NCBI GenBank assembly: GCA_023475565.1
Contig: JAMCVT010000006.1
Span: forward strand, 1-60,013
Source of the DNA: Actinomycetota bacterium
GTDB lineage: Bacteria > Bacillota > Desulfotomaculia > Desulfotomaculales > Desulfocucumaceae
DNA length: 60,013 bases
Direction: 5' to 3'
The position numbers and the translations under genes are program-made. The notes beneath the pieces were generated by a model that was not told the DNA's origin, made no database searches, and worked only from the letters and a program-made list of their open reading frames with translations. This document shows positions 19,415 through 29,423 of this stretch, piece by piece; within the stretch, counting starts at the first letter, position 1, and the number at the start of each line of letters is the position of its first letter.

Positions 19415-19619
19415 ATAACACCGCTGCCAGACCGTGTCAATCCTTCCTGGACAAATTCCCTAACAGCCATTTGGAGGCACCCGCATCCCCATAAATACCG
19501 GTACGCTTTCAGAGTTTAAAGACAGCAAATCTTCGTACCCGGCCCCGTAGGATGAGTGATAAATGAATGGTAATCGGGCCAGAATATTTTTAGTACAAAA
19601 GACAGGAGGAAAAAAGGAA

Positions 19620-19841
19620 ATGATCGACTATCTGTCGGCCACCCTTCTCTCGCTCGAAGAGAAGATAAGCTTTCTGGACAACAATGACCGGCGCCTGCTG
19701 GATGAATTAGCCAACCATATACTGATGACCCACGAACTCCTGCAAAACCACCGAAGCTGCATAAAAACCCCGGGTGAAGCCCATATTTTCCGGGATGGGG
19801 GGATTGACCCGCACAGGGACTATCTGGGGAATCACCACTGA
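19620..19841 (+). CDS. Hypothetical 73-residue helical protein
   Basis: Starts at ATG 19620 behind CAGGAGG with good spacing; an in-frame ATG at 19563 has no ribosome site. Residues 1-45 are predicted amphipathic helices (LSATLLSLEEKISFLDNNDRRLLDELANHILMTHELLQNH). The tail is His/Asp-rich. I do not recognise the family. It ends 30 bases before the structured region at 19872-20325 and is on the same strand, so the two could share a transcript. Confidence 0.6.
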   Translation: MIDYLSATLLSLEEKISFLDNNDRRLLDELANHILMTHELLQNHRSCIKTPGEAHIFRDGGIDPHRDYLGNHH

Positions 19842-19871
19842 AAAATTAATTTGCGGTGAATACTTAGAACA

Positions 19872-20325
19872 AAAAGGGCCATAATAATATCACGGGTTCG
19901 TAATGGCCGGGCCAAGATTGATACAGGGTCTCAAAGGCTCTGTACCAGTCGGCCAAAGATTAATATCGGGTCAGACTGGCTCGGTATTAGCCGGCGGGAA
20001 GATCTCTGGATGTTCCGGCAGGCTGCACTGCAGTCCGAACGATTGCAGTGTGGTCGTAAGGGATGTTCAGTGGTCGGGCTAAGATCATCATGGGTGTTGA
20101 AAATTTTTTGGTTTGCAGAGGTCTTTAATAGTCGAAAGATTATTAAAGACTTCCAAAATATCTATGATGGTCAAGCAAAGATCATTGCGGGTGTCGTAAT
20201 GGTCTCCGGTAGCCGAAAGGTTGCCGGGGGCTGCGCAGATACGCGTAATGGTTGCAGCGAAGGTCATTACGGGCTCATGACATAGAGGCCTTCTCCAGGC
20301 ACTGGAGAAGGCCTCTAGTTTTGTC
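19872..20325 (+). ncRNA. Candidate structured RNA: linear array of long hairpins with a terminator
   Basis: No coding sequence, yet almost every base can pair locally. Hairpins: 19877-19908; 19916-19950 (13 positions, one mismatch); 19958-19992 (13 positions, one mismatch); 20001-20075 (16-position outer stem, one mismatch, around a perfect 15-bp inner stem, 20021-20055); 20083-20172 (outer stem plus a perfect 13-bp inner stem with GAAA loop, 20121-20150); 20180-20204 (perfect 10 bp); 20204-20229 (about 11 bp, GAAA loop); and 20244-20271. The five central stems open with GAUY, most close with RRUC, and are joined by 7-8-base linkers ending in AA (GGGCCAA, GGCCAAA, GGCGGGAA, GGGCTAA, AAGCAAA). 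Many pairs are G-U when read on the plus strand and would be C-A on the other, so the RNA is plus-sense. A strong terminator ends the region. I cannot match it to a known RNA class. Confidence 0.7.
20284..20322 (+). terminator. Strong intrinsic terminator of the structured RNA
   Basis: Perfect 15-bp stem (20284-20298 with 20302-20316), three-base loop, then AGTTTTG. It lies between the plus-strand hairpin array and the convergent HlyIII-family gene. Confidence 0.85.
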
Positions 20326-20340
20326 AGACAGTAAGTATGT

Positions 20341-21161: not shown

Positions 21162-22388
21162 TCAACACTGGTTTGAATATCCTGAAAAACCCGCCTGATT
21201 ATACGCACGAATTCTGTATACATATGTTATTCCGGGCTGTACGGTGCGGTCCAGGTATTCCGTCAGTCCGGGCTCCACCAAAACGTCAATTGTATTAAAA
21301 TCTTCCGCTTCTGTTTTGCGCTCCACCACAAACCCTTCCTCATTATTAGACCTGTTGGTCCAGCCGAGGAGTATAGCGTCAGTCCCCAAGGGTGAGCAAG
21401 ACAGTCCCGAAGGAGCTCTGGGCGGTGATTTATGATCAGAATGTAATACATCCACCCTGGCAGCCATTTCTCCCGGAAACCGGTTTGTTTGGCGCAGCCC
21501 ATGATAATCATGGTCATGAAGGAAATATTGCCCTTCCATATTAGCTTTAAATATCAGATCATAGCTCTCTCCGGAGGCAATGGTTATAGTGTTCTTAAGA
21601 TAGGAGGCGTCAATATTAAGGGAGATTAACGGCCGGCTGTCTACGGCAATCACCCTGGCGGTTATTCCCTCAAGCCGGAAAACATGGTTCTGAAAGCCGG
21701 CGTTTATAATCCTTAAAAGGATTCTCCGGCCGTATCTGGCATTGACCTTTGAGCTTAAAGGCTGGTTAACCAAAAAATCAACCCTGCCGGGCAGCAGCGT
21801 ATGGGGATAGGCCCGGCCGTTGACCAGCCAGTAATCAGGTTCAAAATCCAGCATGTTGAAAGGGCTGCCGCCTGCTGTGGACATATTGAACCTGCTGTCA
21901 GCTTCACTTAAAACCAGTATCTTTTCCATGTCAAAGTATGATCCTGTGTTTGGCCCGTAAGCAAAGCCGCCGAAATTATCGAAAATTTCCCAGGGATAAA
22001 CGGCTATAACCCCGTAAAGCCCCATGGCCACCTGTTTTTCAGGACTGGTTCCGCTCTCGTACAGGAACACTCCCGGGCGGGTGGCGGTAAATATGTATTT
22101 TACTGAGCCACCGGGAGCCGCGTGAGAATTATATGACACAAAAACCCCTTTGTCCTTGACCGGCTCCGGAACCACATCCTGGCCCGGAAAAACAAGCGAT
22201 GCATACTCATTAAGGTTATTCTGCAGATTTATTATAATTATGTCTCCCACCTTGGCCTTAATAACCGGCCCGGGAAGTACCGGATCACCCCCGGCTGCGG
22301 TGGCAAACCCCCAAAACGGGACCGTTTTCCCGTCAGGAAACCTTATTTCACCCTGTTTGGCCCATAAATCTCTGGTAACTACGGCCAT
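21162..22388 (-). CDS. Multicopper-oxidase-like protein C with C-terminal fibronectin type III domain
   Basis: 408 residues. Cupredoxin domains cover about 1-320 (FPDGKTVPFWGFATAAGG, GYRHYVF-type strands, RILLRIINAGFQNHVFRL). A fibronectin III domain ends the protein (APSGLSCSPLGTDAILLGWTN to RIRAYNQAGFSGYSNQ). Copper ligands are mostly gone: where family members have HxHG and HCHxxxH, domain 1 reads SLVFPGQ and LYESGTSPEKQVAMGL; only HDHDYH near residue 300 remains. There is no signal peptide. It is the last of four co-directional genes (39 bases from the previous one). It is probably structural or a partner subunit rather than an independent oxidase. Confidence 0.75.
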   Translation of the reverse strand: MAVVTRDLWAKQGEIRFPDGKTVPFWGFATAAGGDPVLPGPVIKAKVGDIIIINLQNNLNEYASLVFPGQDVVPEPVKDKGVFVSYNSHAAPGGSVKYIFTATRPGVFLYESGTSPEKQVAMGLYGVIAVYPWEIFDNFGGFAYGPNTGSYFDMEKILVLSEADSRFNMSTAGGSPFNMLDFEPDYWLVNGRAYPHTLLPGRVDFLVNQPLSSKVNARYGRRILLRIINAGFQNHVFRLEGITARVIAVDSRPLISLNIDASYLKNTITIASGESYDLIFKANMEGQYFLHDHDYHGLRQTNRFPGEMAARVDVLHSDHKSPPRAPSGLSCSPLGTDAILLGWTNRSNNEEGFVVERKTEAEDFNTIDVLVEPGLTEYLDRTVQPGITYVYRIRAYNQAGFSGYSNQC

Positions 22389-22427
22389 GGACCTATCTCC
22401 TTTCAGACTTATTGCGCCTTGTCCGGA

Positions 22428-23624
22428 CTACACCATACGGGATTCCACGGGAAGAATACCATGATTATGCGGCATAGAGCCGGAGGGGTAAACCGCTATC
22501 ATGGTCATCATCCCCCCGGGAAACGTCCCCCAGTTGGTGATTTCGGGCTCCGCATGGGAATGCAGCATGAAATAATACTCCCCTGCCTGATTGTAAGAAA
22601 CCATACCGGAGGGAAGTTCTCCCTTTTCACCCAGGTACGGGCTTCCGCTCCACATGGTCATGCCGCCGTGCCCTATGGCCATATTGCGCATGTTTGGCAG
22701 CTGTGTGGGAATGTGACTGGTAACCGGATTGAATCCCAAACCGCTCCAGGTATATATTTGATCGTAGGTCTGACCCGCACCGGTCAAAACGGTAAACCTC
22801 TTATACGACAGATTGGTGCTTCTGTTCTGAAGCAGCCTTCCATCCATTCCAACCAGCCGGGTATGGTTGCCGTGAGGGTGCAGGGGGTGGTTTTCCAGCC
22901 CTGCGCCTGCGTAGCGAATAAGCATCTTTTCACCCTGCTCCATCATCAGCATGGAGCCGCAGGGCTGACAGGGCAGGTGGGCTGCATTGTCAGACAGCAT
23001 GGTATCGTTGGAGCACCTGCCGTTTAAGGTCCAGTACCTTGGCTTATACAAACCGGTGTTAAAGCTCTTCCCGTACTCCACTGCCCGGTGCAGGTCAGGA
23101 TCTATTTCCCCCACAATTAGAAGGTATTCCCGGTCAAATTCGGTATCGGTGCCTTCACCGTAGGCAGTTCTGTGTCTAACTTGATGATCCATAAAATCCC
23201 ACGGTCTGACAATGATTGCCCCGTACAGCCCCATGTGCACCTGTTTGAAAGAATCTGTGCCGCTTTCATATAGAAAGGTCCCAGGGCTGACGGCGGTAAA
23301 GGTATAGGAAATGGTTTCACCGGGCATAGCCTGATTGGTCAATGACACCAGTGTGCCGTTATTATACTGGGGCTGAGCCGGCAGGCCGTTGACCTCAACT
23401 TCCTCCTGCCCGGGGAAAAGCAGTGATACGGGCTCCTTAAGGGCATTGGTCAGATTAATGGTCACTCTGGTTTTGTAAAAAGGCGCTTCTTGCTTTACTA
23501 TTATTGTGGGCCCGGGAAGCTGGGCGGGGGCTCCCTCCCTGTCGGTGAACCCCCAAATGTATATGCTTTTACCGTCAGGCGTGCTGATATACCCGTCCGT
23601 GGCCCACAGATTTACGATAGGCAT
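22428..23624 (-). CDS. Multicopper-oxidase-like protein B
   Basis: 398 residues with the same start as its neighbours (TPDGKSIYIWGFTDREG). Domain 1 lacks copper ligands (VSLLFPGQ, LYESGTDSFKQVHMGL). Domain 2 keeps HPLHPHGNH, the trinuclear-site HxxHxH motif, and LHSHAEPEITNWGTFPGGM, which corresponds to the HCH...M motif but has Ser in place of the type-1 copper Cys. It could bind some copper but not form a complete laccase centre alone. No signal peptide is seen. Its gene starts 31 bases after protein A's ends. Confidence 0.77.
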   Translation of the reverse strand: MPIVNLWATDGYISTPDGKSIYIWGFTDREGAPAQLPGPTIIVKQEAPFYKTRVTINLTNALKEPVSLLFPGQEEVEVNGLPAQPQYNNGTLVSLTNQAMPGETISYTFTAVSPGTFLYESGTDSFKQVHMGLYGAIIVRPWDFMDHQVRHRTAYGEGTDTEFDREYLLIVGEIDPDLHRAVEYGKSFNTGLYKPRYWTLNGRCSNDTMLSDNAAHLPCQPCGSMLMMEQGEKMLIRYAGAGLENHPLHPHGNHTRLVGMDGRLLQNRSTNLSYKRFTVLTGAGQTYDQIYTWSGLGFNPVTSHIPTQLPNMRNMAIGHGGMTMWSGSPYLGEKGELPSGMVSYNQAGEYYFMLHSHAEPEITNWGTFPGGMMTMIAVYPSGSMPHNHGILPVESRMV

Positions 23625-23655
23625 AAAATCATCCCTCCCAGAATTAAGCTTATAA

Positions 23656-24708
23656 TCAGGGCTGATTTGGTTTAGCCTGTGGCGGCAGGGTCCCGGGCGC
23701 GAAAATCTGCACCTCGGTCACCATTCCACCCGGCCCGGCCCCGCCGTTTGTATTTTTAGCCAGATTTCGATTGTACATGGGGAGTGTGGCCGGGTATTTT
23801 CCCGGGGCCCCCGGAGCAGTGAAAATGGCGTCGTAAGACTGCCCGGGTGCTATATAAATAATGTTTTTATAATAAGAAAGATCTTCACCGTTTACACCAA
23901 GGGGGCGCATGCCGTCAACCCCTATTACCTTCAGGGATGCGCCCAGCAGCTCCATGGCGTGCTGCTGGAAACCCAGGTTCATAAAGCGCAGCAGCACCCT
24001 GTCTCCGGCGTTCGCCCTTATCAGTGCGGGCCACGGCTGTGACTGCAGCCTTCCCCCGGGGGATGTGACGGTGGTGTCAGGATACGAGCGCCCGTTGATA
24101 AACCAGTATGTGGGCCTGTATTCGGTCCAGTCCGGCTCCTGCACCGTGGCCACCAGGTCATGGAGTACACAGTCGAGCTCGTTTAAAAAGATGTAATATT
24201 CCCGGTCATAATCTGTTCCGGTTTGGTACCCGTATGCTGTTTTATAGGCGGGCTTGGCGGGGTTGTAATCCTGGGGAAGGACAATCAGCGGCCCCACCAT
24301 ACCCATCTGTATATGCTCAACGGGCTCGTGGTGGCAATGGTACATGTATGTCCCCGGGTCCAGGGGCCTGTAATAGTAAACAAAATCCCTGCCCACCGGG
24401 ACTGCCGCGGATGCTTCCGGCACCCCGTCATAGATGGCTATCTGGTTTGGAAAACCGTGGTAATGAATGGTGTGGGGGTCATCCAGGTCCGGCCTGACGG
24501 GAGTTCCAATATTTGTGAGGGTCACATAATACTCCACCCCGGCCTTTAAAGCCAAGGGGGGCGCCATTAGCTCGGCCTTGCCCCTGTAATTGACCAGGCC
24601 CTTTTCAGGGACCCCGGTTATATCCGCGAAGCCAAAAATGTAATGGGTTCTCCCGTCGGGAGTGTCTATCCACCCGTCAGTGGCCGCGCGGCGAAGGTTC
24701 ACTTTCAT
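23656..24708 (-). CDS. Multicopper-oxidase-like protein A (retains domain-1 copper motifs)
   Basis: 350 residues. Domain 1 has THYIFGF-type start, TIHYHGF (HxHG motif) and MYHCHHEPVEHIQMGM, where a Cys, flanking His residues and Met could build a type-1 copper site as in two-domain oxidases and nitrite reductases. Domain 2 has lost its motifs (QQHAMELLG; no HCH). It is the only one of the trio with a plausible complete blue-copper site. No signal peptide. The gene follows the giant protein gene by 77 bases and has GGAGGCGGG upstream of the ATG. Confidence 0.78.
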   Translation of the reverse strand: MKVNLRRAATDGWIDTPDGRTHYIFGFADITGVPEKGLVNYRGKAELMAPPLALKAGVEYYVTLTNIGTPVRPDLDDPHTIHYHGFPNQIAIYDGVPEASAAVPVGRDFVYYYRPLDPGTYMYHCHHEPVEHIQMGMVGPLIVLPQDYNPAKPAYKTAYGYQTGTDYDREYYIFLNELDCVLHDLVATVQEPDWTEYRPTYWFINGRSYPDTTVTSPGGRLQSQPWPALIRANAGDRVLLRFMNLGFQQHAMELLGASLKVIGVDGMRPLGVNGEDLSYYKNIIYIAPGQSYDAIFTAPGAPGKYPATLPMYNRNLAKNTNGGAGPGGMVTEVQIFAPGTLPPQAKPNQP

Positions 24709-24785: not shown

Positions 24786-27700
24786 TCACACCGGCAAGGC
24801 GTTCCCCTGGTACTGGTCCGCCCCTATGTCTATATTGGGCCCCCGTTTTTCACCGTCAAAATCGTCTTCCGGGGCGCTGTGGCCGGCATAGGACTGCGTG
24901 CCTCTGCCGATAACCGGTGAAGCCCCGGTAATGTGGTAGTCCCCCTCCAGCTCCGGAGCCACAGATACAATGACTACACTCTTAAAATCGGGCTGGGCGG
25001 CAAAGGTAACCGCTTTTACAACGGTAGCGTACTCCTTGACAAAGGCCGGGTTTACCGCCAGGTTTTCTCCCCCGCCGGGATAAACCTCCGTCAGGCTGCA
25101 GTAATGGGGGCTGAAAAGGCCGGTGGCGCCGAAAACCTCCATATCCACGGCCCCGGCGTCAGCCAGCTGCCGTGTGTTCAGGTCAAAGTAATACGCCCTG
25201 TTATCCCAGAAAATATTGTTAAACAAAACCGGGTCGCTGAAATCAGGGGCGCCCGGGGGTAGAACCTTCCTAAAGGCCGCGCTGTGGACCTCGCCCACCA
25301 TACCTGCCCCGTGGGGAGAGCGGTCACTGTCCTCGGCGGTGGCGGTGGAAATGTTTTTGGCAATGGTGTTGTTGAAGATAATCACGTTTGAAGCGTCGTC
25401 CAGGGCAATACCGCCTCCAAGGTCGGTGGACACGTTATTGACGATCATGTTGTTGTATATTTTTATTTCATAAGTGGTGGGCTGCAGGAGCCTGACGCCG
25501 CCGCCGTCATCATTGGCCAGATTGCCCTGAATAAGGTTGTTGTATATGCTGACATTGCCGGACCCGGGGGACAGGTCCCCGGGAGGCGCCGGCAGCTCTC
25601 CTCCCACCATTATTCCGGCCCCTTCATCAAAGGATGCGTTGAACAGTATGCAGTTGTGGTGTATTTTTCCGTTATGGCAAAGACCTATATGAGAAATCCC
25701 CCCGCCATATTCGGCGGAGTAATTGCCGCAGATTTTGTTGTGATCCAGTTCGTAATTATCAGCGCCGTTAAAAATGCCTATGCCGCCCGCCAGGTTCAGC
25801 CCCCCGTTATTTAAAACCCGATTGTGGTGCAGGCGGATGTTCTCGTTATGGTTACTGCCCGCGTATGGCTTTCCTATTGTGATGCCCCCGCCGTATCCCC
25901 CTGAGTTGCTCTGAATAACGTTATTGCTTATTTCAAGGTGCCGGCAGTAAGCATTGACATATATCCCCCCCGCGCCGTCGCCCCTGGCGCCGGTGATGGT
26001 AAAGCCGTCAATCATGGGTTTAAAATAAGCATCATAATCCCCGTCCCTGGAGAGAACGGTGATAACCTGCCCCTCGTAAATAACGGGGGTATCTATAAAA
26101 CCATAGTCCAGGGTGCTCAAAAGGCCGCGCCACGCTGTAGGGTCGGCAAGGAAGAACCGGCCGTCAATGGTTGATCCCTGTATGCCAACCGGATTCCCTC
26201 CCGGGCCGCCGGGATTTATTCCCCCGGGCCCCATCCCCTGCAGCCTTATTCTCTTAGCAGGGCCGCCGGCTGAACTGGTATACATTATAGGGTTTTCATA
26301 GTATATACCGGGGTGAACAACAACCAGGGAGTCTCCCGCTGCATTGTTTACAGCCTCCTGAATGGTGGCATAATCCCCGCCGCCACCCTTTATGACATTC
26401 AACACCGCAGGGTTATAGCCGCTTCCCAAAACATGGACGGTGATTCCGGTGGGAGTTGCCCCGCCTCCGTCATTAAAAACCAGCAGCTGCGCCGCTCCGC
26501 CCTGTCCGGATGAGAAAGACGGCAGCACTTTTATGGTTATGGAGGTATCACTCCAGGCCAGTACCTGAACATGCTGCTGGTCATCATTTAATGTTACTTT
26601 TCCATTACCCTGAATTGATCCGAAATCGAGTCCGGTCAGAACCATTTCTTCCTGGCCGGTTACCACCACCCGGTCCACCTTGAATAATTGCGGCGTTCCC
26701 CGGGGTACTAGGCACTGGGGAGGTTGGGAAAACTGCGAGCCCGCATTTTCCACGAAGGCGGTTATGGGGAAAATTGCCACATCGGCGTAGGTGGTTTTGC
26801 CGGGCCATACGTCAAAGACAAGGGGCAGAGTTTGATAATTGGGGTTAAAGTTCAGGTTCGGCCTGTCGGGGTCACCGGGATCATTTCCCACAACCCTGTA
26901 CATATACGGCACTATTCCGGAGGGTATGGGCACATTGCATGTGTAGGTTGAAGGCAGCAGCACTTCAAATATTCCATTTTTATCCGTATAAACCGTAGTA
27001 ATGAGTTGACCGGTGTAATCTCTGATGCCTACGGGGGTATTGGGCACTCCTCTTTTGCCGCCGTAATAGATTAAATTGGGATCGGTCTCGATGTTCACAT
27101 CATCCACCAGCAGGCCCAGTATCCTGCCGGGAATGGGGACATCTGTATAGAGAAAGAAGTCCGCCGCCGCGTTTTCCCCGTCTCCCAGTATTACCTCCTT
27201 TATGTTGCACAGGGGCCGGTACTGCCCGTCATAAGGGCTCCGGGGATCCTGGACCAGATGCAATTGTCCGGCGCAGGGAGGCGCCGGTATCCAGTCCCTG
27301 TTTTCCGGGGCCGGCTCTCTTTTCGGGCAAACCGGCTCCTCCTCCTGCCTGGTTTGGCTCTGGTTCAATACATAACGGTCACCCTGGCCGGTATTCACAG
27401 ACTCCTCCGCAACCACCCTGTACAGCGGTCTGGGACTGCCGTCGGGAAGAGGATTGTATGGGTCCGCCGGAGGGACCACTTCCACATAGTAGGTTCCCGC
27501 CGCCAGCGGCTCGGTCAGGTATTCTCCGGTAACGGGGTCGGGGACTGCCGCGTTATTGGCATCAAGTACCCATCTATCCTCAAAGGCATAACCTCCATCA
27601 AAAACGCCCGGCCTTATCTGGCCCTCCATACTGGGCATCTCAATGCATTTGGGGTCCGGGGGAGCGACAGGCGGCACACAGCCCGTGGGATGTACCCAGG

Positions 27701-29423
27701 GGTCGGTGGCAACACTGTTAATCAGTGTAAATGAACCGTCTGCATTTTTCTGGTAGAGGTTCATAGTTACATTTGGTATTCCCGGCTCAAAATCCTCTGC
27801 TACGGCAAACCGGGGGTCAAACTCATTACGCATTGCAGCATAGCGGATGATTCCGGAAATACCGCCATTTTCCCCACGATTGTATGTCCGTTTTCCAAAA
27901 TCAATATAGTTGGTGCCGCCGGCCCAGGTAATAACGGCAGCTGTCAAAGCCCCTTCGAATATCTCCGGCACCGGATAACGGTTTTCAGGATTGGCCGCCA
28001 CCGCTGTGCGGGCCAGGCGGGTATACCCCACCTCCGCCACGGTAAAATGCTCCAGCTCGAATACCTCATTGAAGGTGTAATTCCCCTCCAGGTCTGTGAC
28101 GGTGGCATACTGAACCGATCCATCCTTGAAGCGTGTCAGCACCTCAACCTCGGGAATCCCCTCTTCACCCGGCTCATAAATGCCGTTTTCATTTCTGTCC
28201 ATGAATACTTTCCCCTTAATCCAGCCGTACCAGCGGGGAATGCCTACCTGTCCGGGGTAGTTTACCGGATCATCCTCCACCACTATGTCCATGGACCCGT
28301 TTTGACCGGGCAGCTGCACTGTGCGAAAGGAAATGATATAATCCAGGGGCTCATCCCAGATAGCCATCTGATATACACCCGGGGGAACATTATTAATCAA
28401 AAACGAGCCGTCCACCTTTCCACGGCCCAGATATACCTGCCGGTCGTTGCCTCCTATGTCCGTCAGGGCTATCCACGGCCGCTCCACCGGAGTTCCCAGG
28501 GCAAAGGGCGCTGCCTGGTCAAATTCAAAAATTGTGCGCACCAGGCCCCGGATTGTTCCCCTGACTTCACCCGGTCCGGGGACGGTGAATTCCATCGGCA
28601 GGGCAAAGCCAATCCATACCAGCGGAAAACGGAAGGCATACTCGCTGCTGTAACCGTCATTTCCCTCCTCCAGCCAGGCCTCTATAGAATAGGTGCCCTC
28701 AATGGTGGTGGTCTGCACCCAGCCGGTTCCGTCCGGCGGGATTACCTGCACCTCATATTTTCCGGGCGGAATATTTTCCACCACGGCGTTTCCTTCAGCG
28801 TCGCTGTATATGTTAACGGCACCGGTCCCCGGCACCGGGATGGGATTGCCCTCGCCGTCATAAAGGTAGTTTCCGCCGACATCCTTCTCATATTGGGTTC
28901 CCAGTGGGTTCCCGAAATAATCTACGGTGACTTCACCCACTGTGTCCTCAATGATTACGCGGAACCCTTCCAGCCCCACTTCGGAAGGAAGGTCCGGCTC
29001 CCCGTTAACCGGCTGGTTGTCGTGGAAAACAAATACCCTTATTTTACTGAGAGGGAGGGGATCCGGCAGCAGCTCAACGGAAGCCTGAACATCACCGCCA
29101 TCCACCTTAACCCAGCTTCCCCCCATTTTGTGTCCCGGGGCCCTTACGGATACCAAATAGCTCCCGTCATGGACAAATACGGTGGGCCTGGAGGAATCCC
29201 CATCGGCGATAACCGGGCTGTGACTGGCCGGGGGTGTTAATGAAGGATCAGGATAGCCTACATTGTTCTCATTGACTATAAACTGAAAATAATCAACAGG
29301 TACCGGCGGGCCGCTGTTCCGGCGGCTGAACACCTTAACCGTCAGGGTCTGATTTCCGGCAGCCGAAGCAATTGTAGAGGAACGCCCCTCACATCCATCC
29401 GGGGAAGGCGCGACTCTGTCCAT
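24786..29423 (-). CDS. Giant multidomain beta-sandwich and beta-helix protein
   Basis: 1545 residues. In order: several carboxypeptidase-regulatory/SdrD-B-like beta-sandwich modules (about 90-320, 390-560, 760-860; for example GKVFMDRNENGIYEPGEEGIPEVEV, with EF-type Asp/Asn spacing); an IPT/TIG domain (about 905-985, VTGQEEMVLTGLDFGSIQG); and a right-handed parallel beta-helix from about 1000 to 1400 (DYATIQEAVNNAAGDSLVVVHPGIY, then repeated NNVIQSN, HHNRVLNN, DHNKICGN, YNNLIQGN, FNNTIAKN). Such modules are normally extracellular, yet the N terminus (MDRVAPSPDGCEGRSS) is not a signal peptide. GGGGGA precedes the ATG. It is the first gene of the four-gene operon and probably a fibrous surface or spore-coat component (inference). 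Confidence 0.8.
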   Translation of the reverse strand: MDRVAPSPDGCEGRSSTIASAAGNQTLTVKVFSRRNSGPPVPVDYFQFIVNENNVGYPDPSLTPPASHSPVIADGDSSRPTVFVHDGSYLVSVRAPGHKMGGSWVKVDGGDVQASVELLPDPLPLSKIRVFVFHDNQPVNGEPDLPSEVGLEGFRVIIEDTVGEVTVDYFGNPLGTQYEKDVGGNYLYDGEGNPIPVPGTGAVNIYSDAEGNAVVENIPPGKYEVQVIPPDGTGWVQTTTIEGTYSIEAWLEEGNDGYSSEYAFRFPLVWIGFALPMEFTVPGPGEVRGTIRGLVRTIFEFDQAAPFALGTPVERPWIALTDIGGNDRQVYLGRGKVDGSFLINNVPPGVYQMAIWDEPLDYIISFRTVQLPGQNGSMDIVVEDDPVNYPGQVGIPRWYGWIKGKVFMDRNENGIYEPGEEGIPEVEVLTRFKDGSVQYATVTDLEGNYTFNEVFELEHFTVAEVGYTRLARTAVAANPENRYPVPEIFEGALTAAVITWAGGTNYIDFGKRTYNRGENGGISGIIRYAAMRNEFDPRFAVAEDFEPGIPNVTMNLYQKNADGSFTLINSVATDPWVHPTGCVPPVAPPDPKCIEMPSMEGQIRPGVFDGGYAFEDRWVLDANNAAVPDPVTGEYLTEPLAAGTYYVEVVPPADPYNPLPDGSPRPLYRVVAEESVNTGQGDRYVLNQSQTRQEEEPVCPKREPAPENRDWIPAPPCAGQLHLVQDPRSPYDGQYRPLCNIKEVILGDGENAAADFFLYTDVPIPGRILGLLVDDVNIETDPNLIYYGGKRGVPNTPVGIRDYTGQLITTVYTDKNGIFEVLLPSTYTCNVPIPSGIVPYMYRVVGNDPGDPDRPNLNFNPNYQTLPLVFDVWPGKTTYADVAIFPITAFVENAGSQFSQPPQCLVPRGTPQLFKVDRVVVTGQEEMVLTGLDFGSIQGNGKVTLNDDQQHVQVLAWSDTSITIKVLPSFSSGQGGAAQLLVFNDGGGATPTGITVHVLGSGYNPAVLNVIKGGGGDYATIQEAVNNAAGDSLVVVHPGIYYENPIMYTSSAGGPAKRIRLQGMGPGGINPGGPGGNPVGIQGSTIDGRFFLADPTAWRGLLSTLDYGFIDTPVIYEGQVITVLSRDGDYDAYFKPMIDGFTITGARGDGAGGIYVNAYCRHLEISNNVIQSNSGGYGGGITIGKPYAGSNHNENIRLHHNRVLNNGGLNLAGGIGIFNGADNYELDHNKICGNYSAEYGGGISHIGLCHNGKIHHNCILFNASFDEGAGIMVGGELPAPPGDLSPGSGNVSIYNNLIQGNLANDDGGGVRLLQPTTYEIKIYNNMIVNNVSTDLGGGIALDDASNVIIFNNTIAKNISTATAEDSDRSPHGAGMVGEVHSAAFRKVLPPGAPDFSDPVLFNNIFWDNRAYYFDLNTRQLADAGAVDMEVFGATGLFSPHYCSLTEVYPGGGENLAVNPAFVKEYATVVKAVTFAAQPDFKSVVIVSVAPELEGDYHITGASPVIGRGTQSYAGHSAPEDDFDGEKRGPNIDIGADQYQGNALPV

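Follow-up and report, generated by a model that had tools for sequence, protein, structure and literature searches.

Like the RNA described here, OLE, GOLLD and ROOL are large, intricately folded, free-standing bacterial RNAs, and all three form homo-oligomers (PMC12286853). The raiA motif RNA (ModT) is likewise a conserved, structured, trans-acting RNA of Bacillota; it measures about 205–209 nt (PMC12286853), is expressed in exponential growth, and C. difficile sporulates less once modT is deleted (PMC11706538). CsfG and Bvs196 are sporulation small RNAs of Bacillus, the latter a sporulation-specific sRNA of 294 nt (PMC9147052). CsrB, CsrC and RsmZ share a further trait with the present RNA, that of carrying many copies of one protein-binding element per molecule.

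The locus considered here lies in a window of 60,013 nt (contig JAMCVT010000006.1, assembly GCA_023475565.1, Desulfocucumaceae), in which a first-pass annotation had proposed an undescribed structured RNA made of evenly linked hairpins. The comparisons reported below support the proposal of a structured RNA, with an excess of folding energy and with homologues that carry compensatory changes, and its undescribed status agrees with the Rfam results: at the gathering threshold the window matches no family of Rfam 15, including OLE, GOLLD, ROOL, raiA, HEARO, 6S, RNase P and tmRNA, at E values up to 5 it gives only chance-level matches to eukaryotic miRNA, snoRNA and IRES families far below threshold, and 26 other loci of the RNA match no Rfam 15 family either. 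Plasmids and phages gave no match to the RNA, and a description of it was found nowhere in the open-licence literature searched. That the RNA represents a new and uncatalogued class is a conclusion well supported by computation, and a description may exist outside open-licence papers or in a supplementary list.

Fold and distribution of the RNA

The plus strand of 19860–20330 folds at −233.8 kcal/mol, whereas 100 dinucleotide-shuffled versions average −141.8 ± 6.1 and none of them comes as low (z = −15.0), and the minus strand reaches only z = −5.95; the preference for the plus strand, which had been claimed from the many G·U pairs, is therefore real, and the difference between strands fits such pairs, which exist only in the RNA of the plus strand. 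The core (19894–20276, plus strand; about 390 nt), as defined by folding energy and by structure tests on alignments, is predicted to be a six-way junction of arms P1 to P6. The junction is closed by P1, a helix of 15 bp between 19894–19908 and 20262–20276 that joins both ends of the RNA, is paired in 99.8% of alignment cells, and had been overlooked in the first-pass annotation, as had a promoter-like element directly upstream (19857–19886). Five further arms leave the junction. P2 (19916–19950) and P3 (19958–19992, with a short base extension 19953–19954/19996–19997) are hairpins of 15 bp, and both stood exactly where they had been placed, as did the linkers GGGCCAA, GGCCAAA, GGCGGGAA, GGGCTAA and AAGCAAA. 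Arms P4, P5 and P6 each consist of two stacked helices with an internal loop or spacer between them: P4 (20001–20075) of P4a (20001–20016/20060–20075) and P4b (20021–20035/20041–20055); P5 (20078–20176) of P5a (20083–20098/20157–20172, with a base at 20078–20080/20174–20176) and P5b (20118–20133/20138–20153), which are separated by a variable spacer; and P6 (20180–20253) of P6a (20180–20195/20238–20253) and P6b (20200–20214/20219–20233), the latter capped by a GAAA loop. The picture of evenly linked beads therefore applies only in part, the beads being arms of a closed junction, and three of the six arms (P4–P6) being made of two stacked helices. The motifs GTAATGG (three occurrences) and CATT(A/G)C (two occurrences) are near-identical in P1 and P6 (19894–19908, 20180–20200 and 20238–20276), and an alternative fold in which P1 and P6 swap partners is possible on these repeats.

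The host genome contains a second full copy of the RNA, with 77% identity, and 3.8 kb from that copy a short match to the 3′ end (TGTAGCGCAGGTCATTACGGGTTC; L028:2062–2104, about 5.56–5.60 kb on contig C28 of G000), which is probably a decayed third copy. A DNA search of 60 relatives showed that most families of the order have full-length homologues; a profile search of the fetched loci gave 53 full-length near copies, and a wider search raised the number of distinct homologues to 135, with a mean identity to the window of 71% for the near and 64% for the far copies and a minimum of 48%. Carriers include Carboxydocella thermautotrophica, Desulfoscipio geothermicus, Desulfotruncus arcticus, Desulfotruncus alcoholivorax, Desulfocucumis palustris, Pelotomaculum propionicicum and Sporotomaculum syntrophicum, and also, on a partial match where the fetched stretch ends, Thermosediminibacter litoriperuensis. 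A covariance model of 104 positions covering P6 and the 3′ strand of P1 (R1) matched 87 of the 113 genomes searched in the class and, in a sample of the phylum, 152 of 398. An RNA of 390 nt that is so structured, has such a distribution and yet is missing from Rfam is unusual. This short model loses sensitivity, since it gives only 65 bits with G017, a genome whose copy is full-length by profile match. Pattern matches in Polynucleobacter, Ramlibacter, Defluviimonas and an Acholeplasmataceae bin were rejected as chance, being accompanied by no profile match. One copy (L187) lies on a contig that is labelled as belonging to a metagenome bin of Armatimonadetes, which may be misbinned Bacillota DNA or a case of transfer.

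The structure is retained across these homologues. In an alignment of 42 rows with 150 pairs, 97.5% of cells hold standard pairs versus 86.1% with partners shuffled, sliding the 3′ side by one to three columns leaves 33–42% paired, changes on both sides occur in 808 cells versus 227, and the covariation score is 0.496 versus 0.256; RNAalifold recovers the fold unaided, with double changes in support of 109 of the 150 pairs. In the alignment of 135 copies, 97.6% of cells are paired over 145 pairs (97.3% in the far copies alone) and 125 of the 145 pairs have changed on both sides, an independent covariation ranking places 100 of its top 120 column pairs within the structure, and 14 far copies fold with z values from −13 to −27 (15 shuffles each). 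Judged by comparative sequence analysis, this is a real, conserved structured RNA.

Transcription unit, promoter and sporulation

The immediate neighbours of 152 loci sort into 160 clusters. In 104 of 145 loci the downstream gene runs opposite to the RNA, as it does in the window, where a gene of the haemolysin-III family is convergent with it. Recurrent neighbours (SpoIVA, SpoVT, LspA and IleRS, named from sequence) differ between loci and none is general, so that a conserved neighbour or operon was rejected; limited to particular lineages (L080, L158 and others) are a convergent spoIVA at 10 loci and an upstream spoVT at eight, both named by eye from sequence. In the window itself, a 92-aa ORF without Pfam matches (19563–19841, plus strand) lies directly upstream of the RNA, and three consecutive multicopper-oxidase-like genes (21162–24708, minus strand; Pfam Cu-oxidase families), one with a fibronectin III domain, adjoin the gene of a repeat-rich protein of 1545 aa (24786–29423), together perhaps a surface metal-oxidation cluster.

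An intrinsic terminator had been annotated behind the last stem, and it is found at that place (20283–20317, plus strand), 6 nt after P1, as a hairpin of 16 bp with GTTTTG after it; of the 135 copies, 107 have a terminator-like hairpin and T tail behind them, compared with 47 in shuffled tails. Taken by itself, such a hairpin would suit a leader that regulates the next gene in cis, as a riboswitch or attenuator does, but this explanation is hardly credible given that the downstream gene is so often opposed, here included, that neighbours are not conserved, and that the 145 loci contain no conserved co-directional downstream gene. A coding gene was likewise rejected: some ORF of at least 60 aa occurs in any of the three plus frames in 72 of the 135 copies, yet no frame is kept, the longest open stretch per plus frame ranging from 16–23 to 122–132 aa with medians of 51–54, and the 91-aa ORF at 20010 is attributed to chance. 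The varied neighbours, the opposed downstream genes, the terminators and the lack of a conserved frame together make each copy look like its own transcription unit, the product of which would act in trans. Some genomes carry several copies, tandem ones included, and their close spacing suggests selection for dosage; two copies lie 508 bp apart in L157 (690–1590) and two others 2.6 kb apart in L137 (1330–1732 and 3943–4336).

Upstream of P1, a −35-like element TGAATA (19857–19862) and a −10-like element CATAATA (19880–19886), both on the plus strand, form a putative promoter of the forespore σG/σF type, the −10-like element beginning 17 nt after GAATA and ending 7 nt before P1, with a predicted transcription start at about 19892–19894. 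This two-block motif was found from the near copies, the far copies being left out of its discovery, and it occupies a near-fixed place before the RNA in all 53 near copies, with a score of 953 versus 487–527 for shuffled upstream regions. The textbook form of the σG promoter is GHATR-N18-CATNHTA, which is the form present in the window; the GG of the σF promoter is often present too. Matches to this consensus with at most one mismatch occur in 53% of the near and 54% of the far copies, versus 5–6% of shuffled sequences and 3.9% of the upstream regions of neighbouring genes (362 regions), and with at most two mismatches in 92% of copies versus 28% upstream of neighbouring genes. Sites for σA with at most one mismatch are present in none of the 135 copies, and matches to σE, σK, σH, σB and housekeeping promoters are at or near background, for which reason these were discarded. 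The position of the match to the consensus, at the expected transcript start, is that of a member of the forespore (σF/σG) regulon, and a promoter of this type is well supported by computation; the choice between σF and σG is left undecided because in C. difficile the two forespore sigma factors overlap in recognition (PMC7438776).

Several copies per genome in unrelated places, and the decayed third fragment in the host genome, are also what would be left behind by a palindromic DNA element, mobile or selfish in the manner of REP or MITE elements, or by a recombination site. This origin is highly improbable, however, as the copies are few and unmatched in plasmids and phages, the G·U pairs kept in place have meaning only in RNA, the minus strand folds much worse, and promoter type and terminators are retained across copies.

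The distribution of the RNA is linked to sporulation. In the phylum sample of 398 genomes, SigG is encoded in 149 of the 152 RNA-bearing genomes versus 182 of the 246 others (Fisher p = 1e-11, kinship ignored), and at the level of the class in 84 of 87 RNA-bearing genomes versus 18 of 26 others (84/3 versus 18/8; p = 3e-4, kinship again ignored), the three class-level exceptions, with RNA and without SigG, being incomplete or fragmented assemblies. A within-clade contrast is provided by the window's own family (f1), where the RNA is present in all six other searched relatives with SigG and absent, together with SigG and SpoIVA, from G004, an assembly of 1.6 Mb that is 97% complete; G059 also has none of the three. 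The 182 genomes with SigG and no match indicate either that sporulation does not generally require the RNA or that diverged copies escape the short model. The RNA could serve as a sequence marker for sporulation-competent genomes in metagenomes.

Six symmetric wobble sites and their possible role

Each arm contains one site of the form G·U-N:N′-U·G, six per RNA, in which both strands read 5′-GNU-3′ and which is accordingly two-fold symmetric. In P1 the site comprises 19895–19897/20273–20275, with wobble pairs 19895·20275 and 19897·20273; in P2, 19927–19929/19937–19939 (19927·19939 and 19929·19937); in P3, 19969–19971/19979–19981 (19969·19981 and 19971·19979); in P4b, 20022–20024/20052–20054 (20022·20054 and 20024·20052); in P5b, 20120–20122/20149–20151 (20120·20151 and 20122·20149); and in P6b, 20201–20203/20230–20232 (20201·20232 and 20203·20230). 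Every one of the six is close to where the first 15-bp layer ends on its outer side, at a hand-counted distance of about 12–22 bp from the central junction. Each of the twelve wobbles is kept in roughly 85–96% of copies, most of the surroundings drifting, and 89 of the 135 copies retain all twelve; the middle pair varies between GC, CG, AU, UA and also GU, and the outer pairs remain G·U. Wobble pairs are weaker than Watson–Crick pairs, and their fixation in place therefore suggests recognition by something rather than a need for stability. In a search for pseudoknots, the best non-nested covariation was found between the middle pairs of the sites in P2, P3 and P4b and the base of P3, and at least three changed middle pairs occur together in 22 copies versus a permutation mean of 10.3 with kinship ignored, a hint only that the middle pairs covary with one another. 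By eye, the half-helices are alike (the GACTGTTACAGGGTC / GGCTCTGTAATAGTC of P2, for example, recurs in P4b with its two strands exchanged), and this likeness suggests that a single hairpin was duplicated to build up the molecule.

An inert nucleotide store, that is, a stable RNA degraded at germination for its ribonucleotides, would account for the multiple copies, the forespore-type promoter and the high stability, but would have no need for twelve wobbles in fixed places amid drifting helices, and is improbable. Known sporulation sRNAs act by base pairing on mRNAs, and a gene that stands alone, with a promoter-like element and a terminator to itself, would be appropriate for an antisense RNA directed at spore mRNAs; here, however, nearly everything is paired, what loops and single strands there are remain short and for the most part vary, and in the alignment of 135 copies no unpaired stretch that could act as a seed is conserved over more than about 4 nt, for which reason antisense action is decidedly improbable. 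Conserved unpaired A's occur in the junction linkers (19956–19957, 20081–20082 and 20178–20179) and in internal loops (20198–20199).

The nearest rival to the reading preferred here is a protein sponge, whose six sites would titrate a dimeric regulator that binds RNA in the forespore, in the way that CsrA is titrated by CsrB and CsrC. The near-identity of the six sites on each molecule, the presence of several gene copies in a genome and the forespore-type promoter are in its favor; RNAs of the CsrB type, in contrast, expose single-stranded GGA loops on loosely linked hairpins, and here most loops vary, the sites are embedded in helices and the conserved P1 helix closes the entire structure. 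To our knowledge, no regulator reads a G·U-N:N′-U·G site, and a sponge is on balance unlikely.

The reading we prefer, and regard as reasonably probable, is a forespore-expressed, free-standing, trans-acting RNA class of endospore-forming Bacillota that acts as a multivalent scaffold with six sites. What the sequence comparisons support is the fold with its six sites, the layout as a free-standing gene, the type of promoter and the association with sporulation; expression, partner and function of the RNA are what we infer. Transcription would be started by σG, perhaps by σF too, at about the first base of P1 and would stop at the intrinsic terminator, yielding an RNA of about 430 nt that folds into the six-way junction, each arm with one symmetric wobble site. 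The six equivalent sites, as their conservation suggests, would be docking points, either for a dimeric spore protein, possibly a homodimer given the two-fold symmetry of each site, or for A-rich internal loops that belong to the molecule itself or to a further copy, the conserved unpaired A's being potential A-minor donors, a role that unpaired A's play in GOLLD (PMC12286853). The RNA would accordingly be a multivalent scaffold of a particle stored in the spore, and neither an antisense regulator nor a leader. A more far-reaching proposal, which we put forward tentatively and consider rather doubtful, is that the RNA serves the endospore as a dedicated architectural part: the forespore would make it in bulk, it would assemble through the wobble sites into a regular RNA or RNA–protein particle that protects or organizes the spore core, and it would persist into dormancy. 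If made in the forespore, the RNA would rank as a strong candidate for an endospore-dedicated structural RNA, and would bring RNA into a developmental program described almost wholly through proteins; the six-fold G·U-N-U·G site is in any case an unfamiliar recognition signature that is open to immediate testing.

Comparison with known systems

In CsrB, CsrC and RsmZ the repeated element is GGA in hairpin loops, compared with a symmetric wobble site inside the helices of a closed junction here, and among the conserved unpaired positions of the 135 copies there is no conserved GGA loop, most loops being variable. CsfG, which is made under σF/σG, and Bvs196 are smaller and come from Bacillus; the RNA has no Rfam match to any small-RNA family. 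The covariance model of the raiA motif RNA (RF03072) matches neither the window nor the homologous loci, and the host genome gave no raiA match in a search that gave none in the control genomes either. OLE, GOLLD and ROOL show no sequence or model match to the RNA and measure about 600 to more than 800 nt versus about 390 nt, and the present RNA is distinguished from them by its regular six-arm junction with repeated wobble sites, by its forespore-type promoter and by the lack of phage or plasmid matches. It is nevertheless, as they are, large, highly structured, free-standing and not protein-coding, and its type of work may yet resemble that of these ornate RNAs. In summary, the nearest relatives by behavior are OLE, GOLLD and ROOL and, as regards the link to sporulation, the raiA motif RNA (ModT).
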